Of a DNA stretch of 64,000 nt, positions 2,550-22,129 are shown piece after piece (within the stretch, counting starts at the first letter, position 1; every line of letters begins with the position of its first letter). Location: positions 1 through 64,000 of the forward strand of contig VEPL01000025.1 of assembly GCA_012026885.1 (NCBI GenBank), in the 5' to 3' direction. The translations under genes and the position numbers were made by a program. The notes beneath the pieces are model-generated. The model had not been told where the DNA came from and made no database searches. It was given only the letters and a program-made list of their open reading frames with translations. The DNA is from Betaproteobacteria bacterium. GTDB lineage: Bacteria > Pseudomonadota > Gammaproteobacteria > Burkholderiales > Rhodocyclaceae.

Positions 2550-2621
2550 CGCAAGCGCAGTAAAACCCACGAGGCATTCGCCTCTGATCCCCGGCATTGA
2601 TCCGAATACGTGAACGGAAAC

Positions 2622-3485: not shown

Positions 3486-3516
3486 TCGAGTCGATCCCGG
3501 CTAACCAGTCCCTTGT

Positions 3517-3537
3517 GCGGCCCGATGGCCGCTTTTT
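3517..3537 (+). terminator. Rho-independent terminator after the CPBP gene
   Basis: Inverted repeat GCGGCC-CGAT-GGCCGC followed by TTTTT, 31 bases after the CPBP stop codon. Confidence 0.75.
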
Positions 3538-3596
3538 CAACAAGGCCGGCGAAGAGGCCGGCCGCCCGTGGTAGCCTCGCCTGCAAGGAGAGAGAC

Positions 3597-3833: not shown

Positions 3834-3835
3834 AC

Positions 3836-4981: not shown

Positions 4982-5041
4982 GGGGCGGACCGGCCGGCCG
5001 GTCCCTGCTGCGCCTCTTCGATCCTCGAAGACAGGCCCGCT

Positions 5042-5773
5042 TCAGCCGCCGTGGATGACCGCGTCGGGAATCAGGTAGAACTCGCGGTTGCCGATGCCGA
5101 GGCGCCAGTTGTCGTTCTGTCGGCGGGCGGCGACGGCGCCACCGTCGTCGGTTGTGAAGCGACGGTCGGTAAAGTGCAGCACCCGGGTGCGTCCGCCCGG
5201 GGCGTGGCCGATCCAGATCTGCGCGCTGCCCGATGAGAGGTTGCGCACGACGCGGAAGTCGCACTCGCGGTTCAGCGAATCGTTGCCCTCGGAGCAGCGG
5301 ATCTTGCCGGAGGCGTCGTACTTGGCGGGCGGTGCCGATCCCGACGAGGCGGAGACCGGGCGGTCGCTGAGGTCGATGTCGAGCGAATAGCTTGCGGTGT
5401 GGCCGCTGCTCTTGGCGTCGCCCATCAGGTAGACGCGGATGGTGTAGTCGCCGTCGCGTGGCAGAGCCCCCGAATAGCGCTCGCCGTAGATCGAGCCGTT
5501 GAACAGGGCGGTCGCGTCGCCCGGTGGCAGGATGTTGAAGTAGGTTGTCGTGCGGTTCCACCGCAGCACCACATCCATGACCTGGCCGGCAGATGCGCGC
5601 ACCCGGTAGTCCGCCACCTGCGGTCCGGTGATCGTGCCCTTGAGCGTGACGCCGGTCTTCCCCTTGGGAAACTGGACCGATTCCTGACGGATGTCGCGCT
5701 CGGCGAGGGCCGGGGCAGTCAGCGAAATGGCCGCGAGGGCGGCGGCGAGACGGAGCAGCGAATCGGTTTTCAT
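5042..5773 (-). CDS. Secreted PPC-like beta-sandwich protein, paralogue of the convergent META protein
   Basis: A 243-residue protein with a clear signal peptide (LLRLAAALAAISLTAPALA). It has no META domain but carries the same two modules as the C-terminal part of the convergent gene at 3836: DYRVRASAGQVM, YFNILPPG, ALPRDGDYTIRVYLMGD, then a Cys-containing tail (RCSEGN, RECDFRV) ending in IPDAVIHGG, against IPEPLLFGG in the paralogue. The ATG at 5773 directly precedes the signal peptide; the frame is open upstream but has no signal-like residues. Location is probably periplasmic. I do not know its function; binding of a surface or cell-wall ligand is only a guess from the fold type. Confidence 0.65.
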   Translation of the reverse strand: MKTDSLLRLAAALAAISLTAPALAERDIRQESVQFPKGKTGVTLKGTITGPQVADYRVRASAGQVMDVVLRWNRTTTYFNILPPGDATALFNGSIYGERYSGALPRDGDYTIRVYLMGDAKSSGHTASYSLDIDLSDRPVSASSGSAPPAKYDASGKIRCSEGNDSLNRECDFRVVRNLSSGSAQIWIGHAPGGRTRVLHFTDRRFTTDDGGAVAARRQNDNWRLGIGNREFYLIPDAVIHGG

Positions 5774-5855
5774 GGTTTTCGGGCGGTTGACCGCAACTGT
5801 TCGGCGGCGCGGGCGGGCCGGGTTCTGCGGATTCTGGGCAAGGGATGGCCGGCGG

Positions 5856-7454: not shown

Positions 7455-7621
7455 CGGGGGCTCCGTGGCGGCACCTGCAGGGTGCCTGACGATGCGTCGA
7501 TTCTAGCGGCGCTGGCGTCCGAATCCAAACGGCGGCCGCAGACCATCGGCCGGCATCCTGAAATTCGGCTGTTTTCCGGTGTCGACCGCGGCAGGGCTGC
7601 GAGCGGGATAAAATGCCGGCC

Positions 7622-10600
7622 ATGACCTCCCCGCGCTTCATCCACCTTCGCCTTCATTCCGAATACTCCGTCACCGACGGCATCGTCCGCCTCGGCGACG
7701 CCGTGAAGGCTGCGGCCGCCGATGGCATGCCGGCGCTGGCGCTGACCGACCTCGCCAACCTGTTCGGGCTGGTCAAGTTCTACAGCGCGGCGCGCGGCAA
7801 GGGCGTCAAGCCGGTGGCTGGCGCCGATGTGTGGATCGCCGACCCGGAAGCGCCCGGGGAAGCGCACCGCATGCTGCTGCTCGTGCGCAATGCGGCCGGT
7901 TACCGCCAGTTGTGCGAGTTGCTGACCCGGGCCTACCTCGCCGAGGGACGGCGCGACCGCGCCGAGATCCGCCGCGAGTGGTTTGCCGAGACCGGCTGCG
8001 ACGGGCTGATCGCACTGTCCGGTGCGCAGCAGGGCGATGTTGGTGCGGCCCTGTTCAACGGCAACCGGGCGCTGGCAATGGCGCGCGCCCAGGCCTGGGC
8101 GGCGCTGTTCCCCGGCGCCTACTACCTCGAAGTCCAGCGCTACGGGCAGGCGCAGCAGGAAAACGCCGTGCAGCAGGCGGCCGACCTCGCTGCCGAGCTC
8201 GGCCTGCCGCTGGTGGCGACGCACCCGGTACAGTTCATGCAGCGCGATGATTTCCGGGCGCACGAGGCGCGCGTCTGCATCGCCGAGGGCTACGTGCTGG
8301 GCGACACCCGGCGGCCGCGCGCGTACACAACCGAGCAGTATTTCAAGACCCGGGCCGAGATGGCCGAGCTGTTCGCCGACCTGCCCGAGGCACTCGAGAA
8401 CAGTGTCGAGATCGCCCGCCGCTGCAACCTCGAGCTGACGCTGGGCAAGAACTTCCTGCCCGACTTCCCGACGCCGGACGGCATGTCGTTGGCCGATTTC
8501 CTCGTCGCCGAGGCCAAGGCCGGGCTCGAGAAGCGTCTCGTCGAGCTGTTCCCGGACGCGGCGGTGCGTTCTGCACGGCGTCCGGAATACGACGAGCGCC
8601 TCGCCTTCGAGTGCGCGACCATCATCCAGATGGGCTTCCCGGGCTATTTCCTGATTGTCGCGGACTTCATCAACTGGGCCAAGAACAACGGCGTGCCGGT
8701 CGGCCCGGGGCGCGGCTCCGGCGCCGGCTCGCTGGTCGCCTACAGCCTGCGCATCACCGACCTCGACCCGCTCGCCTACGCGCTGCTCTTCGAGCGCTTC
8801 CTCAATCCGGAGCGGGTGTCGATGCCCGACTTCGACATCGACTTCTGCCAGGACAACCGCTGGAAGGTCATCGAGTACGTGCGCCGCCGCTACGGCGCGC
8901 AGGCGGTGAGCCAGATCGCCACCTTCGGCACCATGTCGTCGAAGGCGGTGATCCGCGACGTCGGGCGCGTGCTCGACCTGCCGTACTCGCTGTGCGACCG
9001 CCTCTCGAAGCTGATTCCGGTGGTCCAGAACAAGCCGGTGTCGCTCGCCGATGCGCTGGAGCAGGAGCCGGCGCTCAAGGAGATGATGGGCGACGAGCGC
9101 GACGGCGAATCGATCCAGGAACTCTTCGACCTCGCCGGTCGACTGGAAGATTTGACCCGAAATGTCGGCATGCACGCCGGCGGCGTGCTCATCGCGCCGG
9201 GCCGGATTACCGACTTCTGCCCGATCTACCAGGCCACCGGCGCCGATGCCTCGCCGGTATCTCAGTTCGACAAGGACGACGTCGAGAAGGCCGGCCTCGT
9301 CAAGTTCGACTTCCTCGGCCTCCGGAACCTCACCATCATCGAGCTGGCGCTCGATTACGTGCGGCGGCTGACCGGTGCGCGCCTCGACCTGATGAGCCTC
9401 GGCTTCGAGGACCCGGCGGCCTACCAGATCCTCAAGGATGCCAACACGACGGCGATCTTCCAGGTCGAATCGGAGGGCATGAAGAAGCTCCTCAAGAAGC
9501 TCGGGCCCGACCGCTTCGAGGACATCATCGCCGTGCTCGCGCTCTACCGTCCCGGCCCGCTCGGCTCGGGCATGGTCGACGACTTCATCCTGCGCAAGAA
9601 GGGCCAGCAGAAGATCGACTATTTCCACCCGGACCTGACCGCCTGCCTGTCGCCGACCTACGGCGTCATCGTGTACCAGGAACAGGTGATGCAGATCTCG
9701 CAGGTCATCGGCGGCTACACGCTGGGTGGCGCCGACATGCTGCGCCGGGCGATGGGCAAGAAGAAGCCCGAGGAGATGGCCAAGCACCGCGAGACCATCG
9801 CCGCCGGCGCCAAGGAGCGCGGCTACGACCCGGCGCTGGCCGAGCAGTTGTTCGACCTGATGACCAAGTTCGCGGAGTACGGCTTCAACAAGTCGCATAC
9901 CGCCGCCTACGCCGTCGTCACCTACCACACCGCCTGGCTCAAGGCCCATCATTGCGCGGCCTTCATGGCGGCGACCCTGTCGTCCGACATGGACAACACC
10001 GACACGGTCAAGATCTTCTACGAGGACACCGTCGCCAACGGCATCAAGGTGCTCGGGCCGGACGTCAATGCCTCGAGTTACCGCTTCGAGCCGGTCGACC
10101 GGGAGACCATCCGCTACGGGCTCGGCGCGGTCAAGGGCACCGGCGAGCAGGCGGTCAATGTGATCCTCGCTGCGCGTGCCGAAGGCGGCCCGTTCAAGGA
10201 CCTGTTCGATTTCTGCAAGCGCTGCGACAAGCGCCTGGTCAACCGGCGCACCGTCGAGGCGTTGATCCGCGCCGGGGCATTCGACAGCATCGACCCCGAC
10301 CGCGCCAGGCTGCTCGCCTCGACCGGCATCGCCATGGAGTTCGCCGAACAGGCCGAGCGCAACGCGATGCAGACCAGCCTCTTCGACATCGCCGACGTCG
10401 CTGCCGAGCACGCGCCGGAATATGTCGCGATCAAGCCGTGGGACGAACGGACGCGCCTGATGGAGGAGAAGGCGGCGCTCGGCTTCTTTTTCTCGGGCCA
10501 CCCGTACAACGCCAGCAAGCGCGAGCTTGCTCGTTTCGTCCGGCGGCCGCTGGCCAAGCTGGAGCCGGCCAAGGAAATGACCCTGATTGCCGGGCTGGTG

Positions 10601-11065
10601 GTCGGCATCCGCACCCAGATGACGCGGCGCGGCAAGATGCTGTTCGCCCAGATCGACGACGGCACGGCCACGGTGGACGTGCAGGTCTTCAACGAACTGT
10701 ACGAGGCCGAGCGCGCCAAGATCGCCGCCGACGAGATTCTTGTCGTCGAGGGCCGGGTCAGCTACGACGACTTCTCGGGGGGCAACCGGGTGGTCGCAGA
10801 GCGCCTGATGACGCTTGGCGAAGCGCGTGCCCGCTTCGCCAAGCACCTGTTGCTGCGCATGAACGGCGGCTCCGACGCGCGCAAGCTCAAGTCCCTGCTG
10901 GCGCCGTTCACCCCGGGGCCGGCGCAGGTCCGCATCCGCTATGCCAATGCGCAGGCCGAATGCGACCTCGTGCTGGGCGATGCCGCCCGCGTGCGCCTTG
11001 ACGACCCGCTGCTCGAGGCGCTGGGCGAATGGCTGCGGCCGGAAAGCGTCGAGATCGTCTACTGA
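7622..11065 (+). CDS. dnaE: DNA polymerase III alpha subunit
   Basis: Replicative DNA polymerase catalytic subunit, 1147 residues, the usual length for DnaE1. The N-terminal PHP domain starts at FIHLRLHSEYSVTDG. The palm carries the catalytic acidic residues in MPDFDIDF (about residue 400) and VKFDFLGLRN (about 562), with the conserved GPGRGSGAGSLVAYSL before it and ALYRPGPLGSGMVDDF after it. The C-terminal third has the helix-hairpin-helix and OB-fold segment (ITGL/IAGLVVGIRTQMTRRGKM). ATG 7622 gives the family-typical N-terminus; ATG 7613 would add three residues but coincides with a TAAAAT motif that looks like a -10 box, so the mRNA may be nearly leaderless. Confidence 0.97.
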   Translation: MTSPRFIHLRLHSEYSVTDGIVRLGDAVKAAAADGMPALALTDLANLFGLVKFYSAARGKGVKPVAGADVWIADPEAPGEAHRMLLLVRNAAGYRQLCELLTRAYLAEGRRDRAEIRREWFAETGCDGLIALSGAQQGDVGAALFNGNRALAMARAQAWAALFPGAYYLEVQRYGQAQQENAVQQAADLAAELGLPLVATHPVQFMQRDDFRAHEARVCIAEGYVLGDTRRPRAYTTEQYFKTRAEMAELFADLPEALENSVEIARRCNLELTLGKNFLPDFPTPDGMSLADFLVAEAKAGLEKRLVELFPDAAVRSARRPEYDERLAFECATIIQMGFPGYFLIVADFINWAKNNGVPVGPGRGSGAGSLVAYSLRITDLDPLAYALLFERFLNPERVSMPDFDIDFCQDNRWKVIEYVRRRYGAQAVSQIATFGTMSSKAVIRDVGRVLDLPYSLCDRLSKLIPVVQNKPVSLADALEQEPALKEMMGDERDGESIQELFDLAGRLEDLTRNVGMHAGGVLIAPGRITDFCPIYQATGADASPVSQFDKDDVEKAGLVKFDFLGLRNLTIIELALDYVRRLTGARLDLMSLGFEDPAAYQILKDANTTAIFQVESEGMKKLLKKLGPDRFEDIIAVLALYRPGPLGSGMVDDFILRKKGQQKIDYFHPDLTACLSPTYGVIVYQEQVMQISQVIGGYTLGGADMLRRAMGKKKPEEMAKHRETIAAGAKERGYDPALAEQLFDLMTKFAEYGFNKSHTAAYAVVTYHTAWLKAHHCAAFMAATLSSDMDNTDTVKIFYEDTVANGIKVLGPDVNASSYRFEPVDRETIRYGLGAVKGTGEQAVNVILAARAEGGPFKDLFDFCKRCDKRLVNRRTVEALIRAGAFDSIDPDRARLLASTGIAMEFAEQAERNAMQTSLFDIADVAAEHAPEYVAIKPWDERTRLMEEKAALGFFFSGHPYNASKRELARFVRRPLAKLEPAKEMTLIAGLVVGIRTQMTRRGKMLFAQIDDGTATVDVQVFNELYEAERAKIAADEILVVEGRVSYDDFSGGNRVVAERLMTLGEARARFAKHLLLRMNGGSDARKLKSLLAPFTPGPAQVRIRYANAQAECDLVLGDAARVRLDDPLLEALGEWLRPESVEIVY

Positions 11066-11161
11066 CGCGCTGCGCTGACCTTGCCGCCGGGCGGCGGCGG
11101 ACTGGCATAATCGCGGGATGAAAAGAACAGGGGGTACACCTGCCGGGGGAGACGCCGGAGC

Positions 11162-12607
11162 GTGCTGAAGGCGCTCGTCTTCCTGCCGGTGCTCGGGGCT
11201 GCCGTGGTGGCGGTCCTTCCGCTGCGCGCGCTGGCCTTGTGGCGGATCGCGCTGGCCTTCACGCTGCTGGTTCTTGGCTACGCCTTCTGGCTGGCTTCCG
11301 GATTCGACGCGGCCGGCCCTGCCATCCAGTTTTTCGAGAGCCAGCCGTGGAATGTCCGCCTCGGTTCCCATTTCGCCCTCGGCGTCGACGGCATCTCTCT
11401 GGCCATGGTCCTCCTCGCCGCTGCCTTGACGCTGGTCGCGGTGCTCGTCTCGCGGCGCATGGAGACTGGGGCGCGCCTTTACTTCACGTTGGTCCTTCTC
11501 CTCGAATCGGCGATGTTCGGGGTGTTCACCGCGCGCGACTGGTCGCTCTTCTATGTGTTCTGGGAAGCGACCCTGATCCCGCTGTTCTTCCTGATCGACC
11601 GCCTGGGCGGCCGCAACCGGCAGCGGGCGGCGCTCAACTTCTTCCTCTACACCCTGGGCGGCTCGGTCTTCATGCTCGTCGCGCTGCTCTTCCTTTACGA
11701 TGCAGCGCCCGGCCACAGCTTCGCGATGGCCGACATGGCCGAGGGCGGGCGCAGCCTGCCGCTCAACGTGCAGTTGCTGATCTTCGCCGGCCTCTTCATC
11801 GGCTTCGGGGTCAAGATGCCGGTCTTCCCGCTGCACGGCTGGCTGCCGCTGGCCCACGTCGAAGCCCCCAGCCCGGTCTCCATCCTGCTCTCCGGCGTGC
11901 TGCTCAAGATGGGTGCCTATGGCCTGATCCGTGCCGCCGAGACGCTGCCCGCCGCGCTGCTGGCGACGCAGGACTGGCTGGCGGCGCTGGCCTTCATCAG
12001 CCTGCTGTACGGCGGCATCCTCGCCTGGCGCCAGCAGGACCTCAAGGCGATGGTCGCCTATTCGTCGATCTCGCACATGGGCATCGTCCTGCTCGGCATC
12101 GCCACGCTCAACGTGACCGGCCTGACCGGCGCCGTGATGCAGATGGTCGCCCACGGCCTGACCGCGGCGACGCTGTTTCTCGTCGTCGGCCTCCTCTACC
12201 AGCGCACGCACAGCCGCGATCTGGCGGACTATGGCACCCTTGCCGGAGGCGCCCCGCGCTTCGCCTTCTTCACCGCCTTCGCGCTGCTCGCCGCGCTCGG
12301 CCTGCCGGGCAGCGCCGGGTTCATCGCCGAGTTGCATGCCCTGATCGGCGGCTACGCGCGCTGGGGGTTCTGGGTGACCCTCGTCGGCGTTGCCATGCTG
12401 GTCGGCGCCGCCTATTCGCTGCGCGTGATCGGCCGCCTCTGCCTGCGCGGCTTGCCGCCCGCCGGCGTCGCCGACATGACGCGGACCGAGACACTGGCCG
12501 CCGGCCTGCTCGGCGCCGCCATCGTCGTCCTCGGTGTCTGGCCGGCGCCGCTGCTCGGCCTGGTGGCGGGCAGCGTCGACCGCATCGGCCGCCTGTTCGG
12601 AGCCTGA
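11162..12607 (+). CDS. NuoM-like proton-channel subunit 1 of a DAB-like complex
   Basis: Polytopic membrane protein of 481 residues in the NuoM/Mrp antiporter family. Conserved charged residues of the proton path are present: Glu in FYVFWEATLIPLFFLI, Lys in GFGVKMPVFPLHGWLP, Lys in LLKMGAYGLIRA and Glu in GSAGFIAELHALIG. It is not part of a complex I operon: no nuoA-K genes lie nearby. Instead its stop is one base before the start of the DabA-type gene, and three more NuoL/M-like genes follow. It likely forms part of a membrane module that couples ion flow to DabA. The start is GTG at 11162. A 16-codon frame at 11118-11168 overlaps this start. Confidence 0.85.
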   Translation: MLKALVFLPVLGAAVVAVLPLRALALWRIALAFTLLVLGYAFWLASGFDAAGPAIQFFESQPWNVRLGSHFALGVDGISLAMVLLAAALTLVAVLVSRRMETGARLYFTLVLLLESAMFGVFTARDWSLFYVFWEATLIPLFFLIDRLGGRNRQRAALNFFLYTLGGSVFMLVALLFLYDAAPGHSFAMADMAEGGRSLPLNVQLLIFAGLFIGFGVKMPVFPLHGWLPLAHVEAPSPVSILLSGVLLKMGAYGLIRAAETLPAALLATQDWLAALAFISLLYGGILAWRQQDLKAMVAYSSISHMGIVLLGIATLNVTGLTGAVMQMVAHGLTAATLFLVVGLLYQRTHSRDLADYGTLAGGAPRFAFFTAFALLAALGLPGSAGFIAELHALIGGYARWGFWVTLVGVAMLVGAAYSLRVIGRLCLRGLPPAGVADMTRTETLAAGLLGAAIVVLGVWPAPLLGLVAGSVDRIGRLFGA

Positions 12608-12608
12608 A

Positions 12609-15590
12609 ATGATGGCGATACCGGAAGCCGACGATCTGCCCCTGCACGAACGGCTGGCGCATCTGGTCGCGCACCTCGAGCACGTGCTGCCGGCGCAGGC
12701 GCCGATCCGCGACTTCGTTCATCACAACACGCTGCACGGCTTCCAGCACCTGCCTTTTCCGGATGCCCTGGCGGCGGCCGGGCGCCTGACCGGGGCGACG
12801 ACCTGGCTGTCCGAGAGCCGCTCGCGCGAGTTGCTCGCTGTCGGCCGAATCCGGCCGGAGGACCTGGAGGCGGCACTCGAAGCGGCGGGCATCGCCGGAC
12901 TCGAAGATACGGTCGCCGCCGGCCTTGCGCGGCGGACGGTGCTGCTCGCCAGCCTGTGCGGGGCTCCCCCGGGGCCGATCGACCCGGCGCTCGCGGCGCG
13001 TTGTGCGGCCCTTGCGGCAGATGGCGATGACCATGCCCTGGCGGACTGGCAAGCCGACGCCCGGCAGAAGTTGGCGCTGCTTTTCGCGCGCCTTGGGCAC
13101 GAGGCCACGCTGGGCGACCTGATCGCCCATCTGACCGGCGAGGATATCCTCGAACGTATCCGTACGGTGCTGCAGCGCCACCTCGCTGCCCATCTCGACC
13201 TCGGCATCGCTGCCTGGCGCAACCCGGCCCGCGGCGAGGGCTTCTACGCCGCCTGGCGGGCGAGCGCCGCAGTCGACCTCGCCTGGGACCTCGACGAACT
13301 GCCGGATGCGCGCGAGGAGATCCTCTGGTTGCCCGAGGATCCCGTCGCCGCGCTGGCCGAGGCCTTGCTGCACCTCGTCCCGGATGCCGCGTCGTGGCCG
13401 GCCTACCTGGAGCGGCTGGCGCTGGAGTTGCCGGGCTGGGCGGGCATGTTCCTCTGGCGTGACCGTCATCCGGCCGGCGGTGACGGCACGCCGGTCGCCA
13501 TGGTCGATTTCCTCGCCGTGCGCGTCGTCCTCGAGCGCCTGCTGGTCGGCGACTGCCTGCGCCGCATGGCCGGTTCGCCCATTTCCCCCGCGGCTTTGCA
13601 CGACTGGCTGGCCGACCGGCCGGCCGAGTTCCTCGTACGCGACGCGCTCGCGTCGCGATGCCTTGACGAGAGCCTGCAGGACCGCGCCGCCCGCCTGGTC
13701 GCCGGCGGAGAGGCAGGGGATGGCGAGTGGGAGGAACTGGCGGCGGCCATCGCCGCACTGCCGGAGGCCGGCGCGGCCGCGGCAGGCGCGCGTCTGGCGG
13801 GCCTGCTCGCGGCGCTGCCGGACACCGCCGTGGAACAACTGGATGGCGATTCGGCGCGGGCGCTGCTGGCCAGTGCCGGCAGCCTGGCGGCCGACACGCG
13901 CGGCCACGTCTGGCTGCTGGCCTACGAGCGCCGCTACCGCGAGCAGCTGTTCGCCGCCCTGGCCGCGAACCGTTCCCGCGCCCGGACGTTGCCGGCACCG
14001 GCGGTGCAGGCCATCTTCTGCATGGACGACCGCGAGGAGGGTACGCGTCGCCACCTCGAGGAGATCGCGCCCGATGTCCATACCTATGGTGCCGCCGGCT
14101 TCTTCGGCGTGGCCATGGCCTGGCGCGGCCTGGCGGATGCGGCGCCGAGCGCGCTTTGTCCCATCGTCGTGCAGCCCGTGCATGCCGTCAGCGAGACGGC
14201 GCTGGCTGAGGACGCCGATCGCCACCGCGCCCGGCGCAGCCGCCGCCTCGCCTGGCGCGAGCGCTTCCTGCAGACCACCCGCCGCTCGCCGTTCGCCGGC
14301 CCGTTGCTCACCGCCATCGCGGCCCCGGCCGCCGCCGCAGCGCTGGTCGCCGGGCCGCTGGCGCCGGCCGGGTTCGGCCAGGCGGTGCGTGGCTGGCGCG
14401 AGCGCTACGACCGGCGGCCGTCCACTGCGCTGGCCCTGACCGCGGAGGCGCCGCCCGCGCTGCCGCCGACCCCGGCGATGCCCCAAGCCGGGTTTACCGA
14501 CGACGAGCAGGCCGAGCGGGTGGCGGCCTTCCTGCGCCAGATCGGCCTGACCGGCGGCTTCGCGCCGCTGGTCGCGCTGCTCGGGCATGGCTCCGGCAGC
14601 CGCAACAATCCGCACCTGTCGGCCTACGACTGCGGCGCCTGTTCCGGCCGGCACGGCGGTCCGAATGCGCGCGTCTTCGCGGCGATGGCCAACCGGCCGC
14701 CGGTGCGCGCCCGCCTCGCCGCGCAGGGCATCGCGATTCCCGAGGCGACCTGGTTCATCGCCGGCGAGCACAACACCTGCGACGACACCGTCGAGTGGTA
14801 CGACCTCGAACTCGCGCCGGCGGCGTTGCAAGCCGCGGTCGACCGCTTTGTCACCCGCCTTTCCGAAGCCTGTCGCGCCCACGCCGCCGAGCGCTGTCGC
14901 CGGCTCGCCTCGGCGCCGCCGCGACCATCGCCCTGGCTGGCCCAGCGCCACGTCGCCGGGCGCGCCAACGACATCGCCCAGGCGCGGCCCGAACTGGGTC
15001 ATGCGACCAATGCGGCGGCGGTCATCGGCCGGCGCGCACTGACCCGGGGCCTCTTCCTCGACCGCCGCGTCTTCCTGATTTCCTACGACCCGTCCGCCGA
15101 TGCCGACGGCCGCATCGTCGAGGGAATCCTGCTCGCTGCCGGGCCGGTCGGTGCCGGCATCGCCCTCGAGTACTACTTCTCGACCGTTGACAACGAGCGC
15201 TTCGGTTGCGGCTCGAAGGTCACGCACAACGTGACCGGGCGTTTCGGTGTCATGGAAGGCGCCGATTCGGACCTGCGTACCGGCCTGCCCCTGCAGATGG
15301 TCGAGATCCACGAGGCGATGCGCCTGCTCGTCGTGGTCGAGCAGACGCCGGAGACGCTGGCCGCCATCGTCGCCCGCCAGCCGGCGTTGCAGGAGCTGGT
15401 CGGCAACGCCTGGATCGTCGTCGCATCCTGCCATCCGGAGAGCGGCGAACTGGCCCTGTTCTGCCCGCGTCGCGGCTGGCTGCCCTGGGCGGGTGAAGCC
15501 GTCCTGCCGCAGGTCGGGCGCTCCGCGGAGTGGTTCGCCGGCGAGCGCGAGGCGCTGCCCCCTGCGGTCATCCTCGGGGCTGTCGCATGA
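12609..15590 (+). CDS. dabA: DabA-type probable inorganic carbon transporter subunit (DUF2309)
   Basis: A 993-residue protein of the DUF2309/UPF0753 family; DabA of Halothiobacillus works with a NuoL-like partner (DabB) to hydrate CO2 vectorially to bicarbonate. The beta-carbonic-anhydrase-like site is intact: C471 and D473 in FCMDDREEG, H660 in LLGHGSG, and C675 in YDCGAC. The 15-residue step between the His and the second Cys is the same as reported for Halothiobacillus DabA (H524, C539). The N-terminus has the family pattern IRDFVHHNTLHGFQHLPF. No transmembrane helices dominate, fitting a cytoplasmic-face subunit. Start is ATG 12609 (or 12612); its stop overlaps the next ATG (ATGA). Confidence 0.9.
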   Translation: MMAIPEADDLPLHERLAHLVAHLEHVLPAQAPIRDFVHHNTLHGFQHLPFPDALAAAGRLTGATTWLSESRSRELLAVGRIRPEDLEAALEAAGIAGLEDTVAAGLARRTVLLASLCGAPPGPIDPALAARCAALAADGDDHALADWQADARQKLALLFARLGHEATLGDLIAHLTGEDILERIRTVLQRHLAAHLDLGIAAWRNPARGEGFYAAWRASAAVDLAWDLDELPDAREEILWLPEDPVAALAEALLHLVPDAASWPAYLERLALELPGWAGMFLWRDRHPAGGDGTPVAMVDFLAVRVVLERLLVGDCLRRMAGSPISPAALHDWLADRPAEFLVRDALASRCLDESLQDRAARLVAGGEAGDGEWEELAAAIAALPEAGAAAAGARLAGLLAALPDTAVEQLDGDSARALLASAGSLAADTRGHVWLLAYERRYREQLFAALAANRSRARTLPAPAVQAIFCMDDREEGTRRHLEEIAPDVHTYGAAGFFGVAMAWRGLADAAPSALCPIVVQPVHAVSETALAEDADRHRARRSRRLAWRERFLQTTRRSPFAGPLLTAIAAPAAAAALVAGPLAPAGFGQAVRGWRERYDRRPSTALALTAEAPPALPPTPAMPQAGFTDDEQAERVAAFLRQIGLTGGFAPLVALLGHGSGSRNNPHLSAYDCGACSGRHGGPNARVFAAMANRPPVRARLAAQGIAIPEATWFIAGEHNTCDDTVEWYDLELAPAALQAAVDRFVTRLSEACRAHAAERCRRLASAPPRPSPWLAQRHVAGRANDIAQARPELGHATNAAAVIGRRALTRGLFLDRRVFLISYDPSADADGRIVEGILLAAGPVGAGIALEYYFSTVDNERFGCGSKVTHNVTGRFGVMEGADSDLRTGLPLQMVEIHEAMRLLVVVEQTPETLAAIVARQPALQELVGNAWIVVASCHPESGELALFCPRRGWLPWAGEAVLPQVGRSAEWFAGEREALPPAVILGAVA

Positions 15591-17110
15591 ACGGCGTGCT
15601 ATCCCGCCTTCCGGATTTCGTCTGGCTGGTGCCGGGCCTGCCGCTGGCTGCTGCCGCCGTGACTGCCGCGCGCGTCCTGCTCGGGCGTGCCCGCGGCGAT
15701 GACGGCGAGCCGCCGACCGCGCGCCTGGCCGAGATCGCTGCGCTCGGCGGCCTCGTCCTGCTCCTCGCCATCGACGTGAAGGCGCTGCTGGCCGGCGCGC
15801 CGGGGCATCGCGTGACCGGGGTCTGGCTGCCCGGCGGCGAATGGGAGGGCACGCTGTCCTTCCTGCTCGATGCCCTGTCGCTGGCGAGCGCGACGACGGC
15901 GGCGCTGGTCGGCTGGCTGGTGACACGATTTTCTGCGGCCTACCTCCACCGCGAGGCGGGATTCCACCGCTTCTTCATCGTGCTCGGCGCCTTCCTCGCC
16001 GGCATCCAGCTGGTCTTCCTGTCCGGCAACGGCCTGCTTGCGTTCGTCGGCTGGGAGCTTTGCGGCGCCACCTCCTTCCTGCTCATCGGCTATGCCTGGC
16101 AGCGCCCGGTGGCTACCGGCAACGCCTTGTTCGCCTTCGCGACCAACCGGGCCGGCGATGCCGGGTTCATGCTCGGGCTCGGACTCGCGGCCGCCTGGCT
16201 GGGCAGCTTCGAGTGGCCGGCGCTGACCGGCGGCCTGTTGCCGGCGGTGACGGCCCGCATCCTCGCCGTCGGCTTCGTCGTCGCGGCGCTGGCCAAGTCG
16301 GCGCAATTACCCTTCACCCCCTGGATCGCGCGGGCGCTCGAAGGGCCGACGCCGTCGTCGGCGATCTTCTATGGCTCGATCATGGTGCATGCCGGCGTTT
16401 TCCTGCTGCTGCGCCTGCACCCGCTGTTCGCCCAGGTTCCCGATGTGCTGGCCGGCATCCTGATCGCCGGGGCGCTGACCGCCGCCTACGCGTGGCTGGT
16501 CGGGCTTGTGCAGACCGACGTCAAGTCGGCCCTGGTCTTCGCGACGGTCTTCCAGATCGGGCTGATGTTCGTCGCCATCGGCCTCGGGTGGACGACGCTG
16601 GCGACGGTTCACCTGTGCCTGCATGCCCTCTGGCGCGCCTGGCAGTTCCTGCTGGCGCCGTCGTGGCTGGCGCTGACCGAAGCGCCGCCGAAGCCGGCGC
16701 CGGCCTGGCTGCGCCGCCGCCAGTGGCTGTACACCGCGGCGCTGCAGCGCTTCTGGCTGGACCGTCTGGCCTTCGCGTTGCTGGCCCGGCCGACCGAGAG
16801 CTTCGCCCGCGACGTGCGCGGTTTCGAGGCGCATTTTGTTGACCCGACGCTTGGCGAAGCCGGGCGTGGCCGCCCGCGCGGCTCGGCGCCGCCGCTGGTG
16901 AGCGCCGACGGGGTGCCCGGGCGGCTTCTGGCACGTGCCGCCGAGGTGCTGCAGCGGGTCGAGATCCACCTGTCGCTGCGCGGCCGCGGCGGGGCGGCCG
17001 AACGCCTGCTGCGCCAGGGCGGCGCCTGGCTGCGCACGGTGGAGAACCTGCTCGAGCAGCCGCGTTACCTGATGATGGCGGTCATGGCGACTTTCGTGGT
17101 GATCCTGTGA
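15587..17110 (+). CDS. NuoL/DabB-like proton-channel subunit
   Basis: A 507-residue NuoL-like membrane protein, the probable DabB-type partner of DabA. It shows the family features: a N-terminal helix bundle, Glu in FVGWELCGATSFLLIGY, Lys in ALAKSAQLPFTPWI, the ALEGPTPSSAIFYGS segment and Lys in QTDVKSALVFATVFQIGLM. It is about 100 residues shorter than complex I NuoL; the last helices and the long lateral helix are replaced by a basic, less hydrophobic region (residues about 370-480) that ends in one membrane segment. The start ATG overlaps the dabA stop (ATGA) and the stop overlaps the next GTG, so all are translated from one message. Confidence 0.85.
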   Translation: MNGVLSRLPDFVWLVPGLPLAAAAVTAARVLLGRARGDDGEPPTARLAEIAALGGLVLLLAIDVKALLAGAPGHRVTGVWLPGGEWEGTLSFLLDALSLASATTAALVGWLVTRFSAAYLHREAGFHRFFIVLGAFLAGIQLVFLSGNGLLAFVGWELCGATSFLLIGYAWQRPVATGNALFAFATNRAGDAGFMLGLGLAAAWLGSFEWPALTGGLLPAVTARILAVGFVVAALAKSAQLPFTPWIARALEGPTPSSAIFYGSIMVHAGVFLLLRLHPLFAQVPDVLAGILIAGALTAAYAWLVGLVQTDVKSALVFATVFQIGLMFVAIGLGWTTLATVHLCLHALWRAWQFLLAPSWLALTEAPPKPAPAWLRRRQWLYTAALQRFWLDRLAFALLARPTESFARDVRGFEAHFVDPTLGEAGRGRPRGSAPPLVSADGVPGRLLARAAEVLQRVEIHLSLRGRGGAAERLLRQGGAWLRTVENLLEQPRYLMMAVMATFVVIL

Positions 17111-18606
17111 CCGGCGCCTTCAGCGAGATCCACTGGAGCCTGCAGGGCGGCCTGCCGCTGCTCGCGCTGCTGCAGGTGCTGCCGCTGGCCGGGGCGGCGC
17201 TCGTCTTCGCGCTCGGCGAACGTCCCGCAGCCGTCCTGGCCGGCAAGGTGGCCGCGCTGGCCGAGCTCCTGCTGGCGCTGACTGCGGCCAGCCGCGTCGT
17301 CCCGCAGTCGGCGGCGCTGCAACTGGCCGAACGCGTCGACCTGCTCGGCTACCATGTTGCGGTCGACGGCATTTCCATCGTGTTTTTGCTCGTTGCGGCG
17401 CTCCTCACCCTGTTGATGACGCTGTACGGCATGAGCCGCGGCATGATTTCGCCGGGTCGCCTGTTCGCCGTGCTGCTCATCGCCGAGGCTGGCCTGGTGG
17501 GCATGGTTCTCACCCTCAATGTTGCGTGGTTCGCGGCCTTCTCGGCGCTTGAACTGTGGGCGGTCACCTTCCTGCTGCGGCGCTGGGCGTCGTCGCGCGC
17601 CGAGATCCAGGCGCTGGCGCGTTTCGTCCAGTACCAGGCGTTCGGCTGGGCGCTCTTCGCGGCCGGTTGCGTCGTCCTCGGCTGGGGGCATGCCGACGCC
17701 ACCGGCGGGCGCTGGAGCTTCGACCTGTTCGACCTCGCCGGCACGCTGCCGGCCGGCAAGTTCCAGACTGCGGCCTTCTACCTGTTGTTCTACGGGCTGG
17801 CGGTGCGCACGCCGCTCTTTCCTCTGCATGGCTGGCTGCCCAACATGGCCCAGCACGGCCTGATCGCCGTCGCCCCGGCGCTGATGGTCGGCGTCAAGGT
17901 CGGCATCTACGGCATGCTGCGCTTCGTGCTGCCGCTGACGCCGGCGGCGGTGGCGACCTGGCAGCCCTACGTGGTCGGCTTCGCCATGGCCGGCGTCTTC
18001 TTCACGGCCGTGCTCGCCTTCCAGCAGACCAACCTGCGCCGCCTTCTCGCCTTCGCCGTGGTCAGCCACACCAGCCTGCTGGTCATCGGCGTCTTCAGCC
18101 TGCACGAGGCGGGAATCCAGGGCGCCGTGCTGCTCGCCGCCAACTTCGGCCTGGCGGTGACCGGCATGTGGTTCATCGTCGGCTTCGTCTTCCGGCGCAC
18201 CGGTACCACGGAGCTGGGCGAACTCTCGGGCCTGTTCGAGCGCATCCCCTTCCTTGCCGTCGCCTTCCTCGTCTTCGGCCTGGCCATCGTCGGCATGCCG
18301 GGCACACCCGGTTTCGATGCGGCGCACCTGGTCCTCGAGGCCGCCATCGACAGCTTCGGGGCGCTATCGACGGTGGCGACCGCGCTCGGCAACGTGGCCG
18401 CCGCCGGCTTCCTGCTCTGGGCTTTCCAGAAGGCTTTCCTGACGCCGGCGCAGGGGGGCTACGAGGTCGACCGGACGCTGCCGATGGAATACATCGTCGG
18501 CGGCATCGCGCTGCTGGCGCTGGTATCGATCGGCGTGTTCACCGAGCCCTGGCTCCAATTAACCGAGACGCCCAGCCAGGCGATGGCGGCGAGGTTCGCG
18601 CGATGA
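17107..18606 (+). CDS. NuoM-like subunit 2, with altered proton-path residues
   Basis: A 499-residue NuoM-like membrane protein, GTG start overlapping the previous stop. Fold landmarks are there (ALELWAVTFLLRR, PLFPLHGWLPNM, VGVKVGIYGMLRF), but several positions differ from canonical antiporter subunits: the Lys of the VKTPLFPxHxWLP segment is Arg (AVRTPLFPLHGWLP), the segment after it reads AQHGLIAVAPALM instead of the usual His-Thr-Glu-Ala-Pro type, and the late-helix Glu (GxPGTxxFxGE) is replaced in GMPGTPGFDAAHLVLE. This suggests a subunit with a changed or lost proton channel, perhaps structural. Assignment to the family is firm; the functional reading is inference. Confidence 0.82.
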   Translation: MTGAFSEIHWSLQGGLPLLALLQVLPLAGAALVFALGERPAAVLAGKVAALAELLLALTAASRVVPQSAALQLAERVDLLGYHVAVDGISIVFLLVAALLTLLMTLYGMSRGMISPGRLFAVLLIAEAGLVGMVLTLNVAWFAAFSALELWAVTFLLRRWASSRAEIQALARFVQYQAFGWALFAAGCVVLGWGHADATGGRWSFDLFDLAGTLPAGKFQTAAFYLLFYGLAVRTPLFPLHGWLPNMAQHGLIAVAPALMVGVKVGIYGMLRFVLPLTPAAVATWQPYVVGFAMAGVFFTAVLAFQQTNLRRLLAFAVVSHTSLLVIGVFSLHEAGIQGAVLLAANFGLAVTGMWFIVGFVFRRTGTTELGELSGLFERIPFLAVAFLVFGLAIVGMPGTPGFDAAHLVLEAAIDSFGALSTVATALGNVAAAGFLLWAFQKAFLTPAQGGYEVDRTLPMEYIVGGIALLALVSIGVFTEPWLQLTETPSQAMAARFAR

Positions 18607-20057
18607 GCGTGCCGTTGCTGTCGCTGACCATCGCCGCACCGCTCGCCGGCGCCTTCCTGCTCGCCGCGGTGCCGCCACGGCTGGCGCGTGCCGTCCAGGC
18701 CGGCGCGCTGCTGGTCACGCTGATGCTGGCCTGCGCGGCAGCGGCGGCCTACGATCCGGGCGGCGCCCGCTTCCAGCTGCTCGAACGGGTCCTGTGGGTT
18801 CCCGGACTCAACGTGCACTACCTGGTCGCGGTCGACGGCCTCTCGGTGCTCTTTTTGCCCTCGACCGCGCTGCTCTTCCTTGCGGCACTCGCGGTTGCCG
18901 ACGAGAACGACCCGGCGCCGCGCCTGCATGGCGCCCTCCTGCTCGTCCTCGCGGCGGCGACGCTGGGCATCTTCTGTGCGCTCGACACGATGCTCTTCTT
19001 CCTGTTCTGGGAGGCGACGCTGGTACCCCTCTATTTCCTGCTCGCCCGACGCGGGGTCACGACGGCCAGCCCGGCCGCGGCGACCCGCTACGCGCTGCTG
19101 ATGCTCGCGGGCGGCGTGCCGCTGCTGCTCGCTTTCGTGCTGCTGGCCGCGACCCAGCCGGTTCCGGTCTTCGACGTGACGGCCCTGCTCGCGGCACAAC
19201 TCCCCAAGTCGACACAGGTCGCGGTCTTCCTCCTCCTGCTGGCCGGGGTTGCCGCCAAGCTGCCGCTGGTGCCGCTGCATACTTGGCTGCCGCAGGTGGC
19301 GCTGGCCGGCCCCGGTTCGCTGGTGGCGCTGGTGGCCGGGCTCAAGGTCGGCGGCTACGCGTTGATCCGTTTCGCCGTGCCGCTGGCGCCGGAGGCGGCC
19401 GCCAGCCTGCACTGGCTGCTCGCCGGGCTCGGTACCCTGACCCTGCTCTACGGGGCGGTGGCGATGGTCGCGCAGAGCAACCTGCGCGTCGTGCTCGCCG
19501 GTGCCAGCATCTGCCATGTCGGCCTCGTCGTGCTCGGCATCGCCTCGCTCTCCGCTGCCGGCGTGCAGGGCGCGGTGGCGTTGCTGCTCAGCTTCGTCCC
19601 GGCCACCGGCGGCGCCTTCCTGCTCCTCGAGATCCTGCGCCGGCGCACCGGCTCGACCGACGTCCACAGCCTCGGGGGGGGCGCCCGCAGCATGCCGCTG
19701 CTCGCCGCCGGCTTCTTCGTCTGCGGCCTCGCCGGTGTCGGCATGCCGGGGACGAGCAGTTTCCCCGGCGAGTTCATGCTCATCCTGTCGGCCTTGCGCG
19801 CTCACACCGGCGCCGGCATGGCCGCGTTGTTCGGGTTGTGCATCGCCGCCGTCGCCTTCCTGCACCACTATCGGCGGGCCTTCCTCGGGCCGGTCGTGCA
19901 TCCGCAGGTGGCGGCCGCGCGCGATCTCGAGGGACGCGAGTGGGCGGTGCTGGTCGCGCTGGTGGCGGCGATCTTCGTGATCGGCCTTTATCCCGGCCCG
20001 TGGCTGGAGATCGTCCGCCCGGCGGCGGAGGCGTGGGCGGCGGGCGTGCAGCGCTGA
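18603..20057 (+). CDS. NuoM-like proton-channel subunit 3
   Basis: A 484-residue NuoM-like protein, the last gene of the operon, ATG overlapping the previous stop (ATGA). Key residues are retained: Glu in FLFWEATLVPLYFLL, Lys in AGVAAKLPLVPLHTWLP, Lys in AGLKVGGYALIRF and Glu in GTSSFPGEFMLIL. It is therefore likely a functional ion channel, unlike the preceding subunit. Together with the subunits at 11162, 15587 and 17107 it makes four antiporter-type proteins around a single DabA, more than the one found in two-gene dabAB operons. The gene ends 22 bases from the convergent yjdM; no clear terminator is seen in that gap. Confidence 0.85.
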   Translation: MSVPLLSLTIAAPLAGAFLLAAVPPRLARAVQAGALLVTLMLACAAAAAYDPGGARFQLLERVLWVPGLNVHYLVAVDGLSVLFLPSTALLFLAALAVADENDPAPRLHGALLLVLAAATLGIFCALDTMLFFLFWEATLVPLYFLLARRGVTTASPAAATRYALLMLAGGVPLLLAFVLLAATQPVPVFDVTALLAAQLPKSTQVAVFLLLLAGVAAKLPLVPLHTWLPQVALAGPGSLVALVAGLKVGGYALIRFAVPLAPEAAASLHWLLAGLGTLTLLYGAVAMVAQSNLRVVLAGASICHVGLVVLGIASLSAAGVQGAVALLLSFVPATGGAFLLLEILRRRTGSTDVHSLGGGARSMPLLAAGFFVCGLAGVGMPGTSSFPGEFMLILSALRAHTGAGMAALFGLCIAAVAFLHHYRRAFLGPVVHPQVAAARDLEGREWAVLVALVAAIFVIGLYPGPWLEIVRPAAEAWAAGVQR

Positions 20058-20079: not shown

Positions 20080-20421
20080 TCAGGCTTTCCTGACGAATTC
20101 CGACTTGAGCTGCATCGCGCCGAAGCCCTCGATGCGGCAATCGATGTCGTGGTCGCCATCGACCAGGCGGATATTCTTGACCTTGGTGCCGACCTTGACC
20201 GTCGCCGACGATCCCTTGACCTTGAGGTCCTTGATCACCGTCACCGAGTCGCCGTCCTGCAGTTCGTTGCCGTTGGCGTCGCGCCAGATGCGCCGCGCCT
20301 CGGCGGGTGCGGCGCCGGCGTCCGCGCCCCATTCGTGCGCGCATTCCGGGCAGATGTAGAGGGCGCCGTCGGCATACGTATATTCCGACTGGCACTTCGG
20401 GCATTTCGGCAGGTCGCTCAT
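20080..20421 (-). CDS. yjdM: YjdM/PhnA family zinc-ribbon protein
   Basis: A 113-residue protein of the YjdM (formerly PhnA) family. The N-terminus holds a zinc ribbon with two CxxC pairs ([25 protein letters not shown]), followed by the PhnA domain ([35 protein letters not shown]). It was once linked to phosphonate use because of its position in E. coli, but the biochemical role is unsettled. Here it lies just downstream of the SulP gene on the same strand, separated by 16 bases, so the two probably form one transcription unit facing the dab-like operon. No phosphonate genes are nearby. Confidence 0.9.
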
Positions 20422-20437
20422 CGGCGTGATTCCCCGG

Positions 20438-22129
20438 TCAGTAGTCTTCGTCGCCGCCGCCCATCAGGTTCGGCAGCAGGATGTAGGTGCGTTCGAGCGC
20501 CTGGGTCAGGTCGGCGCAGACATTGGCTTCGCCGAGCAGGTCGATGAAGCCGGAGCGGCGCAACAGCGACCCGGGTTGGGCGTTGAGGCCGCCGACGAGC
20601 AGCGTGCAGCCCCGCTTGGCCAGCTTGTCGCGCAGGTTTTCGAGGCCCTCGAGGCCGGTGGTGTCGAGTTGGACGAGGCGCGTCATGTCGAGGATGACGA
20701 CCTCGGGGTGGCCGGCGCGCGGGTCGAGCAGTTCCTCGAGCTTGTTGACTGCACCGAAGAACAGCGAGCCGTAAAGCTGCCAGGCGGCCACGCGCATCGT
20801 CCCGTCCGGGTAGAGGAAACGCGGCTCCTGGGCTTCCTCGTCGAGCGGCAGGCGCTCGATGCGGGTCAGTTCCGACATGCGGTAGATGAAGAACAGGCTG
20901 GCCAGCACCATCCCGAGTTCGACCGCGATGGTCAGGTCGAAGAGGACGGTGACGAAGAAGGTGGCGAGCAGGATGATCCGGTAGTTGTAGGAATAACGGC
21001 GCAATTCGAGGAATTCGTGCCATTCGCCCATGTTGACCGCGACGACCATGACGATGGCCGACAGCGTCGCGAGCGGCACGTAGGAGGCGAGCGGTGCGGC
21101 GACCAGCACGATGGCGAGCAGCACCAGCGCGTGGATGATGCCGGCGACCGGCGTGCGCCCGCCGGTCTTGACGTTGGTCGTCGTGCGGGCGATGGCGCCG
21201 GTCGCCGCGAAGCCGCCGAAGAATGGCGCCGCGATGTTGGCGAGCCCCTGCGCCATGAGCTCCTGGTTGGGATCGTGGCGGTCGTCGATCTGGCTGTCGG
21301 CGACGCGCGCCGAGAGGAGTGACTCGATGGCGCCGAGCAGGGCGATGGTGATCGCCGGCGAGATCAGCTTGCCGAAGTCGTGGATCGACAGGCTGGGGAA
21401 ACCGAAGGCCGGCAGTTCCTGCGGGATGCCGTTGAAGCGGCTGCCGATGGTCTCGACCGGCAGTTCCAGGGCCCAGGCGGCGACGGTGCCGGCCACCAGG
21501 ACCACGAGCGGGCCCGGCGCCCGGCGCAGCAGGGCGAGCTTCTGGGCCAGCCGGTTGTAGGAGATCAGGAAGGTGAAGCAGGCCAGCGCGAGTGCCAGCG
21601 TCGGCAGGTCGACCGTGTGCGCGTGGGCCGCGAGCACCTTGATGCGGGCGAAGAATTCGGCCGGCAGGTGGTCGATCTGCAACCCGAAGAAGTCCTTGAT
21701 CTGGGCGAGGAAGATGACGACCGCGATGCCGTTGGTGAAACCGATGACGACGGTCACCGGGATGAAGCGGATGAGCTGGCCCATGCGCGCGATGCCCATG
21801 GCCAGCAGCAGGATGCCGGCCAGCATTGTGGCGCCGAGCAGGTTGGCGAAGCCGTGGGCGGCGACGATGCCGTAGACGATGGGGATGAAGGCGCCGGTCG
21901 GTCCGCCGATCTGCACCCGCGACCCGCCCAGCGCCGAGGTGATCAGGCCGGCGACGATGGCAGTCCAGATGCCGGAGGCCGGGGAGGCACCCGAGGCGAT
22001 GGCGAAGGCCATGGCCAGCGGCAGGGCGAGGACGCCGACGGTGATGCCGGCGGCGAGATCCTTGCCGAACTGGGTGCCGCTGTAGCCGGGCAGGCAGTCC
22101 AGCAGCTTGGGGCGGAAGGCGATCTTCAT
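20438..22129 (-). CDS. SulP family anion transporter with STAS domain
   Basis: A 563-residue SulP transporter. The membrane part (residues about 1-410) opens with [10 protein letters not shown] and contains the family signatures [33 protein letters not shown] and [23 protein letters not shown]-terminal STAS domain (about 440-555) carries [20 protein letters not shown]. SulP proteins move sulfate, bicarbonate or dicarboxylates. The substrate cannot be read from sequence, but the neighbouring DabA operon makes bicarbonate a reasonable candidate. A consensus sigma-70 promoter lies 28 bases upstream of the ATG (22157-22184), so strong, constitutive or repressor-controlled expression is likely. 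Confidence 0.9.

Follow-up and report, generated by a model that had tools for sequence, protein, structure and literature searches.

A five-gene DabA operon and a His/Leu division of the DAB family: a possible second class of membrane-energised carbonic anhydrase

The five-gene operon described here is best read, by a modest preference, as a second (His) class of membrane-energised carbonic anhydrase, possibly coupled laterally like the arm of complex I. Two sets of linked features divide the family, with DabA residues numbered as in DabA2 of Halothiobacillus neapolitanus, the solved relative of the DabA studied here. The His class, to which the operon belongs, combines His658, no finger Glu, a DabB gene downstream of DabA and a Glu in TM5 of DabB. 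The Leu class (DAB1/DAB2-like) combines Leu658, finger Glu444, DabB upstream of DabA and no TM5 Glu.

Operon organization and gene calls

The window is a 64,000-nucleotide stretch of contig VEPL01000025.1 from a Betaproteobacteria bacterium; its plus strand from 11162 to 20057 carries M1, DabA, DabB, M2 and M3, in that order and with no internal stops (Table 1). A 1-base gap separates the first two genes, and the next three junctions are 4-base overlaps (ATGA, GTGA and ATGA). Open reading frames and Pfam matches bear out both these junctions and the series of NuoM-like, DabA, NuoL-like, NuoM-like and NuoM-like proteins given in the initial annotation. Pfam cut-offs were 25 bits for PF10070 and 21.5 bits for PF00361. 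Against the NCBIfam model NDH_I_M (cut-off 264), M1 (461) and M3 (363) score above and M2 (262) just under, and DabB is NuoL-like, yet far short of the NuoL cut-offs. With PF10070 above its cut-off, the zinc ligands and Asp-Arg dyad in place and an adjoining NuoL/Mrp-type membrane partner, the operon almost certainly encodes a DAB-family subtype.

Table 1. Features of the DabA operon and its downstream flank, in window coordinates.
Feature	Position	Strand	Details	Evidence
M1 (NuoM-like)	11162-12607	+	GTG start, 481 aa	PF00361 227 bits; NDH_I_M 461 bits
DabA (carbonic-anhydrase-like, His-type)	12609-15590	+	993 aa	PF10070 819 bits
DabA zinc-site region	14019-14633	+	C471, D473, R475, H660, C675	Alignments
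DabA helical finger	14214-14411	+	Residues 536-601	AF2 helices 536-559, 563-584, 586-601
DabA His798	15000-15002	+	Equals DabA2 Leu658 (transition-state residue position)	Alignments
DabB (NuoL-like)	15587-17110	+	507 aa	PF00361 113 bits and PF00662; AF2 model; hydropathy
DabB Glu157	16055-16057	+	TM5 ion-pair Glu (NuoL Glu144; DabB2 Ile151)	
DabB residues 361-507	16667-17107	+	Without TM12-15	Hydropathy, low-confidence AF2 model
M2 (NuoM-like, altered residues)	17107-18606	+	GTG start, 499 aa	PF00361 121 bits
M3 (NuoM-like)	18603-20057	+	484 aa	PF00361 166 bits
YjdM/PhnA gene	20080-20421	-	Between operon and SulP	Pfam
SulP transporter with STAS domain (DauA-like)	20438-22129	-	Outside operon	Pfam, NCBIfam

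Two DabA clades with linked signatures

Residue 658 was His in 114 and Leu in 83 of 197 DabA rows, a sample enriched in the His type through the first scan. The TM5 Glu was present in DabB alongside every His658 DabA (101/101) and alongside no Leu658 DabA (0/81). Forty loci fetched after this rule had been noted gave 19/19 and 0/19, the remaining two being without a partner; this later set is not fully independent, because in the antiporter rows L236 and L030 have the same sequence. Finger position 444, counted in 150 rows with a DabA of 700-1350 aa, was Glu in 62 and Asp in one of the 63 Leu-type rows, and the 87 His-type rows (window included) had no Glu and 16 Asp. In a DabA tree of 185 of the 195 rows, the His (104) and Leu (81) groups are parted by one branch with a support of 100. 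The linked sites all follow a single deep split, so each may have arisen in one event. Since the TM5 Glu is also found in His-type loci with a single DabB, it marks the clade, and extra subunits alone do not explain it. The idea that this Glu is kept owing to the extra subunits is weakened by loci L068, L069, L076 and L078, in which it is kept in a single long DabB and no second antiporter gene was found.

The window proteins have none of the Leu-clade marks: DabA has neither Leu658 nor a finger Glu where DabA2 has Glu444, and DabB carries Glu157. Leu at position 658 has been reported as strictly conserved across 150 homologues, against the 114 His and 83 Leu counted here. The DAB2 variants L658G, L658A and L658N are reported to remain active in vivo, while L658Q allows growth but is inactive in vitro; given these variants, residue 658 may be of little consequence. 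Glu444 is indispensable in DAB2, and introducing Glu at DabB position 151 halved the growth yield (PMC13144422). By alignment, the zinc-site residues of the window DabA correspond to C351, D353, R355, H524 and C539 of DabA2; among 156 rows with DabA pieces of at least 600 aa, four of these are conserved throughout and H524 in 155. The AF2 model of DabA had no match among PDB folds at E <= 0.001 (best E 0.099), and 9rd0 was absent among the fold matches listed. AF2 alignments were built from 37 of 47 DabA and 45 of 49 DabB sequences.

Membrane subunits

The window DabB consists of TM1-11 only, followed by an unusual C-terminal part (residues 361-507) with predicted amphipathic helices and a hydrophobic C-terminal end, a region of low AF2 confidence. 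Zero hydrophobic segments were found from TM11 to the last 34 residues in 80 of 88 five-gene DabBs, and 80 of 81 upstream DabBs have three to five inner hydrophobic segments. The hydrophobic C-terminal end is present in 66/88 five-gene versus 1/81 upstream DabBs. The DabB of five-gene operons has usually lost TM12-15. At loci L142 and L170, DabB and M2 share a single reading frame as natural fusions.

M1 retains all six examined residues (TM5 E, TM7 K, TM8 K, TM10 K, TM11 H and TM12 E), a pattern, EKKKHE, seen in 51 of 52 five-gene rows. M3 has the pattern EKKRFE, with Lys to Arg in TM10 and His to Phe in TM11, in all 52. M2 carries A in TM5, R in TM7, R in TM10, F in TM11 and A in TM12, and most key channel residues are gone or altered in the M2 of five-gene operons. 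The proposal of the initial annotation that the operon provides more proton channels per CO2 is weakened by the M2 losses, the two M3 changes and the DabB without TM12-15. Four equal channels are ruled out on residues, and the M2 losses together with the shortened DabB make four working proton channels unlikely. By calculation, a single H+ per CO2 is thermodynamically more than sufficient at an ordinary proton-motive force, so extra channels would need some other reason.

An antiporter tree of 145 out of 156 sequences placed M1, M2 and DabB each on its own side of a branch (support 96-99) and M3 likewise with a support of 46; it included 8 of 19 complex I references, the others probably having been lost because the longest frame was not the gene.

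Occurrence in other genomes

As had been proposed, genomes were searched for DUF2309 genes flanked by at least three antiporter-type genes. The five-gene order, scored as DabA preceded by one full-length antiporter gene and followed by three or more, was found in 74/197 DabA rows, every one His-type, in Pseudomonadota and Actinomycetota; hosts include Azonexaceae, Accumulibacter, Methylococcales, Magnetococcales, Rubrobacter and others. Because it recurs in this way, the arrangement is not a product of chance. DabB was missing from the cluster in 15/197 rows, six His-type loci (L023, L053, L059, L185, L199 and L220) had only M1 or no partner within the fetched stretch, and at L140 DabA is located inside an Mrp-type operon. 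The first relative set was the best 80 of 85; beyond it, 80 regions came from the 96 matching class genomes, 8 from 12 Actinomycetota genomes (two more were already included) and 32 from the 45 genomes of the phylum sample. Five loci whose DabA pieces are shorter than 500 aa (L044, L067, L073, L075 and L077) lie outside the 197 rows.

Genome context

Seven PF00361 proteins, and no eighth, were found in the whole genome: four in the operon and three at C1:380-385 kb that read as NuoL, NuoM and NuoN, 360 kb away. A Pfam scan of 37 window ORFs recognised no Nuo or Mrp small subunits, nor redox or quinone modules of the NDH-1MS kind, and the scanned ORFs of the operon and its flanks (DNA polymerase III alpha, YjdM, SulP and PLD genes) included no small Mrp subunit (B, C, E, F or G). 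The earlier view that this is neither complex I nor a standard Mrp antiporter therefore stands: the genome's NuoL, NuoM and NuoN are distant, and no missing subunit was recognised in the scanned ORFs of the operon and its flanks. On these grounds a complex I or Mrp fragment is rejected.

The lack of RuBisCO, carboxysome and carbonic anhydrase genes remarked for the window extends in part to the genome, in which neither a RuBisCO large subunit nor a BMC (carboxysome) shell protein was found; two beta-carbonic anhydrases are encoded, both on other contigs. The missing RuBisCO and shell genes rule out RuBisCO-linked carbon concentration in this genome. In the class sample, RuBisCO was no commoner with window-type (His) than with Leu-type systems (13/18 versus 41/50 genomes, p 0.50). 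The SulP gene, annotated as adjacent, is indeed nearby, but it is convergent to the operon with the YjdM/PhnA gene intervening, and its score against the BicA model NF050096 (262 bits) is below the cut-off of 880.

Comparison with known systems

The five-gene arrangement was published in outline in 2017 as COGNAT "clade C" (PMC5700660). As in the window, a ybcC (DUF2309/PF10070) gene lies 5' of a nuoL homologue, often with extra NuoM (COG1008) genes and SulP (COG0659) nearby, and it was suggested that a larger number of membrane genes could translate into more ions per reaction. The available text of that account gives neither a carbonic-anhydrase function nor a residue signature, and mentions neither a shortened DabB nor a degenerate M2. 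Unlike the gene arrangement, the His/Leu clade split with its linked signatures is apparently unpublished: no description was found in openly licensed literature (most subscription papers lay outside the search), and the available portions of papers on Nitrosococcus, Riftia symbionts and Nitrospira contain nothing on DabA.

DAB2 of H. neapolitanus (PMC13144422; PDB 9rd0, 9rd8, 9rd9) shares with the window the DabA family, zinc site and NuoL-like DabB channel residues. It differs in having two genes (DabB, DabA), Leu658, finger Glu444, Ile151 and a 15-TM DabB. DAB1-like operons (DabB1, small protein, DabA1) also share the DabA family, but are Leu-type, and their DabA is preceded by an antiporter gene and a gene encoding about 250 aa. 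Complex I and Mrp contain homologous NuoL/NuoM/MrpA/MrpD-type subunits, whereas the window operon has no other recognised complex I or Mrp subunit. Cyanobacterial NDH-1MS/CupA resembles the mechanism proposed below in placing a zinc protein that hydrates CO2 on a NuoL-type subunit, which ends an antiporter row with ion-pair switching; in contrast to the window, it has redox and quinone modules, and the helical fold of CupA does not resemble that of known carbonic anhydrases (PMC6981117).

Alternative explanations and proposed mechanism

An ordinary DAB, in which DabA and DabB suffice and M1, M2 and M3 form a separate co-transcribed cation/H+ antiporter that serves pH or Na+ homeostasis, is unlikely but deserves weight: the two-gene DAB2 functions alone (PMC13144422), clusters combining Mrp-type genes with one for a bicarbonate transporter have been described (PMC7784846), the L140 DabA sits within an Mrp-type operon, and single-partner His-type loci occur. 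However, M1, DabB and M2 each form a group of their own apart from the eight complex I references (M3 weakly), the gene order is identical in two phyla, DabB-M2 fusions exist at two loci, a DabB without TM12-15 is not a complete antiporter-like subunit, and Mrp small subunits were not recognised beside the window operon. Sodium-coupled bicarbonate uptake, as proposed for S. aureus MpsAB as a Na+/HCO3- symporter (PMC13144422) and perhaps involving the neighbouring SulP, would suit the distribution of SulP genes (in the fetched stretch of 32/93 His-type versus 5/63 Leu-type rows). We consider it quite improbable, as the DabA zinc site is kept as in carbonic anhydrase, the SulP gene of the window runs on the opposite strand and scores under the BicA cut-off, and DAB2 is fully active without sodium (PMC13144422).

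Methanotrophs, which release CO2, are among the hosts, and this would fit the reverse direction, in which an exergonic DabA reaction (CO2 hydration or HCO3- dehydration) powers outward ion pumping. The complete residue set of M1 and a His at 658 as in canonical beta-carbonic anhydrases, which would fit an intrinsically active enzyme, point the same way, and the COGNAT authors proposed ion pumping driven by an unspecified exergonic YbcC reaction (PMC5700660). The energetics make it very improbable: hydration yields -6.6 kJ/mol at pH 7.5 and HCO3-/CO2 = 1, which corresponds to 0.45 H+ at 150 mV.

For the preferred reading, a membrane-energised His class, we infer complex formation, CO2 hydration and its direction, the proton as the ion, and lateral coupling from sequence. 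That CO2 hydration is energised by the membrane is probable; that the antiporter subunits provide lateral coupling falls a little short of an even chance. DabA, bearing the zinc site, would convert CO2 to HCO3- in the cytoplasm. DabB would be a NuoL-derived hub that retains the cytoplasmic half-channel and TM5 ion-pair Glu and has lost TM12-15, with M2 beside it as a mostly structural or modified neighbour. Ion entry via M1 and M3, the likelier ion channels, would be relayed laterally to DabB and DabA through ion-pair switching of the complex I kind, there driving or gating CO2 hydration in one direction. A single DabB and the DabA finger Glu would perform the equivalent task in the two-gene DAB2. 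The HCO3- formed in this RuBisCO-free organism may supply carboxylating enzymes. More tentatively, DAB systems could comprise two mechanistic classes, with the carbonic-anhydrase subunit of the His class driven by a complex I-like row of antiporter subunits via ion-pair switching, in effect a redox-free equivalent of the complex I that pumps CO2 in cyanobacteria.

Significance

Both the DAB structure found (9rd0 with its companion entries) and the mechanism drawn from it describe the Leu class. Should protons take a different route in the His class, a large share of DAB systems (114/197 in this His-enriched sample) would fall outside that mechanism. The linked residues lend themselves to a clean swap experiment. 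A redox-free antiporter row joined to a carbonic anhydrase, if true, would be a simple model for sideways energy transfer by complex I subunits, and it would point to CO2 capture in RuBisCO-free organisms, the window's own among them.

Organization of the operon and its host genome

The five genes were recovered exactly as the initial annotation had described them in order, reading frames and junctions. Pfam and NCBIfam assign their products as NuoM-like (M1), DabA, NuoL-like (DabB), NuoM-like (M2) and NuoM-like (M3). For DabA, only one relative has a solved structure, Halothiobacillus neapolitanus DabA2 (9rd0_A, E 1e-72). M1 matches NuoM chains (E 8e-79), and the best structural-chain matches of DabB are complex I NuoL/ND5 (E 3e-47), with DabB2 weaker (E 3e-21). 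A DNA polymerase III alpha gene ends 96 bases before the operon start, and convergent YjdM and SulP genes lie 3' of it. Five Azonexaceae/Rhodocyclales loci (L002, L005, L006, L008 and L009) also carry this pair close to the operon, with SulP 84-88% identical.

The host genome (2.97 Mb, 38 contigs, 100% complete) encodes a single DabA, which groups among Azonexaceae/Dechloromonas sequences in both the scan and the DabA tree. Of its seven PF00361 (antiporter-type) proteins, four belong to the operon; the other three are encoded at 380-385 kb on this contig and look like NuoL, NuoM and NuoN. Two beta-carbonic anhydrases are encoded away from the operon, and no BMC shell protein was found in the host genome.

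Coordinates of features in the window and in fetched loci of relatives (L-numbers)
Sequence	Feature	Position	Strand
Window	POTRA/ShlB-type two-partner secretion transporter	467-2452	minus
Window	Operon M1-DabA-DabB-M2-M3	11162-20057	plus
Window	YjdM and SulP genes	20080-22129	
Window	Orn/Lys/Arg decarboxylase gene, then GGDEF-EAL protein gene	30439-34709	
L140	Mrp/Mbh-type antiporter operon with Leu-type DabA: SulP, DabA, MnhE, MbhD/E-like, MnhB, NuoM-, NuoL-, NuoM-like	544-12451	minus
L142	DabB-M2, one 1048 aa open frame	94-3237	
L170	DabB-M2, one 1048 aa open frame	11333-14476	

Two classes of DabA

The best 80 of 85 relatives from a DabA scan were taken as loci, and 120 further regions were added from class, phylum and Actinomycetota genomes. 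DabA2 carries Leu658 at a site that holds Gln or His in canonical beta-carbonic anhydrases, and its authors call this residue strictly conserved across 150 homologues (PMC13144422). The window DabA has His instead. Among 197 DabA proteins with their neighbourhoods (rows, window included), the residue is His in 114 and Leu in 83. Where a DabB is in the cluster, it lies downstream of DabA and carries the TM5 Glu in all His rows (101/101); in Leu rows it lies upstream and never does (0/81). The remaining 15 rows (13 His, 2 Leu) have no DabB in the cluster, including L142, where the DabB-M2 frame is ~4.6 kb downstream. The rule was fixed before the last 40 loci (L201-L240) were obtained, and in these the TM5 Glu occurs in 19/19 His and 0/19 Leu rows, two being partnerless. 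The finger residue Glu444, essential in DAB2, the two-gene H. neapolitanus system (PMC13144422), is Glu in 62/63 and Asp in 1/63 Leu rows; in His rows it is never Glu (0/87) and is Asp in 16/87.

A DabA tree built by a quick method separates the two types by one branch (support 100). Because the signature sites follow clades, the 197 rows cannot be counted as that many independent events, and each difference between His and Leu rows may have a single evolutionary origin.

Gene orders among relatives

In 74/197 rows, all His-type, DabA is preceded by one full-length antiporter gene and followed by three or more; contig ends truncate many of the other rows. Among the first 156 rows, 52 have the order M1-DabA-DabB-M2-M3, 49 a single antiporter gene, upstream only (8 of them His-type M1-DabA), 21 antiporter-small protein-DabA and seven DabA-DabB-x. 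Planctomycete-type loci have, besides DabA and DabB, a single antiporter gene, which is degenerate. An additional antiporter gene lies 3' of M3 in Rubrobacter and other Actinomycetota (L064, L202-L204), and L009 also has an extra piece, resembling a broken M3. Six His-type loci have M1 alone or no nearby antiporter gene despite continuing sequence (L023, L053, L059, L185, L199 and L220); these are split operons or losses. Four small His-type loci (L068, L069, L076 and L078) have a SulP gene immediately 5' of DabA and a single long NuoL-like DabB. The L140 operon is another route to adding antiporter subunits to DabA.

A SulP gene lies within the fetched stretch in 32/93 His versus 5/63 Leu rows up to L200 (p 0.0001, kinship ignored). 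Kinship is likewise ignored in the counts by gene order (32/82 versus 4/70) and in the uniformly fetched regions L121-L200 (5/18 versus 5/63). RuBisCO was found in 10/37 searched genomes of first-scan loci, all His-type. Counts that include weak RuBisCO-like matches are 13/18 His-type and 41/50 Leu-type among the typed class genomes (n=68; p 0.50) and 197/370 in the whole class sample.

A shortened DabB and a degenerate M2

At TM5, TM7, TM8, TM10, TM11 and TM12, the window subunits read E-K-K-K-H-E (M1), E-K-H-K-H with TM12 absent (DabB), A-R-K-R-F-A (M2) and E-K-K-R-F-E (M3). The M1 and M3 patterns hold in 51/52 and 52/52 five-gene rows. Among the 89 subunits second after DabA, counting Planctomycete-type ones, no Glu stands at the TM5 site (two unread), most motifs listed have Glu/Gln at +2 from it, and TM7 is Arg in 82 and Lys in six, all Actinomycetota.

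The recognisable antiporter fold of five-gene DabBs stops after TM11. By a simple hydropathy rule, 80/88 lack a hydrophobic segment between TM11 and the last 34 residues, and 66/88 have a hydrophobic C-terminal end versus 1/81 upstream DabBs, 80/81 of which have three to five inner hydrophobic segments. Of the eight exceptions, six are Actinomycetota DabBs that have both the inner segments and the hydrophobic end; the other two are the long frames in L142 and L207. Eight of 14 other His-type DabBs also lack inner segments. The AF2 model of DabB (mean pLDDT 82) is concordant for residues 1-363, falls below pLDDT 50 in three stretches beyond residue 422, and resembles chains of the NuoL type (TM 0.62-0.73, normalised by query length).

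The fused frames of L142 and L170 argue that DabB and M2 are in contact. A 1162 aa frame in L207 bears NuoL and NuoM motifs and is perhaps another DabB-M2 fusion. In the antiporter tree, M1, M2, DabB and upstream DabBs each fall on one branch side (support 95-99; M3, 46), so the set seems co-inherited.

Possible mechanism and significance

In DAB2, protons passing via DabB and the DabA finger are proposed to activate a latent carbonic anhydrase; Ile151, replacing the TM5 Glu, is thought to favour the open state, and placing Glu there halved growth yield (PMC13144422). For NDH-1MS, the cyanobacterial CO2-pumping complex I, ion pairs are proposed to open and close in sequence along the row of antiporter-like subunits (PMC6981117). 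The window class differs from DAB2 in having the TM5 Glu, no finger Glu and additional subunits, so a natural inference is that ion-pair coupling would pass laterally and sequentially along these subunits. By sequence comparison, the TM5 Glu is itself a clade trait and alone would be no proof of such coupling, since L068, L069, L076 and L078 carry it with no antiporter gene found besides the long DabB. At 150 mV and pH 7.5, one H+ per CO2 is calculated to allow a HCO3-/CO2 ratio of up to ~5,000, so there is no thermodynamic need for extra subunits; their role would rather lie in operation at low proton-motive force, in rate, in gating or in the use of another ion.

We conclude that the operon is real, conserved and present in several phyla. 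It is a DAB variant whose gene order has been known in outline since 2017, when such an arrangement, including additional NuoM and SulP genes, was published (PMC5700660). In the open-licence literature searched, no description was found of the shortened DabB, of the degenerate M2 or of two DabA classes whose catalytic and channel residues are linked. Since no RuBisCO large subunit was found in the host genome, the likeliest use of HCO3- in this organism would be the supply of carboxylating enzymes.
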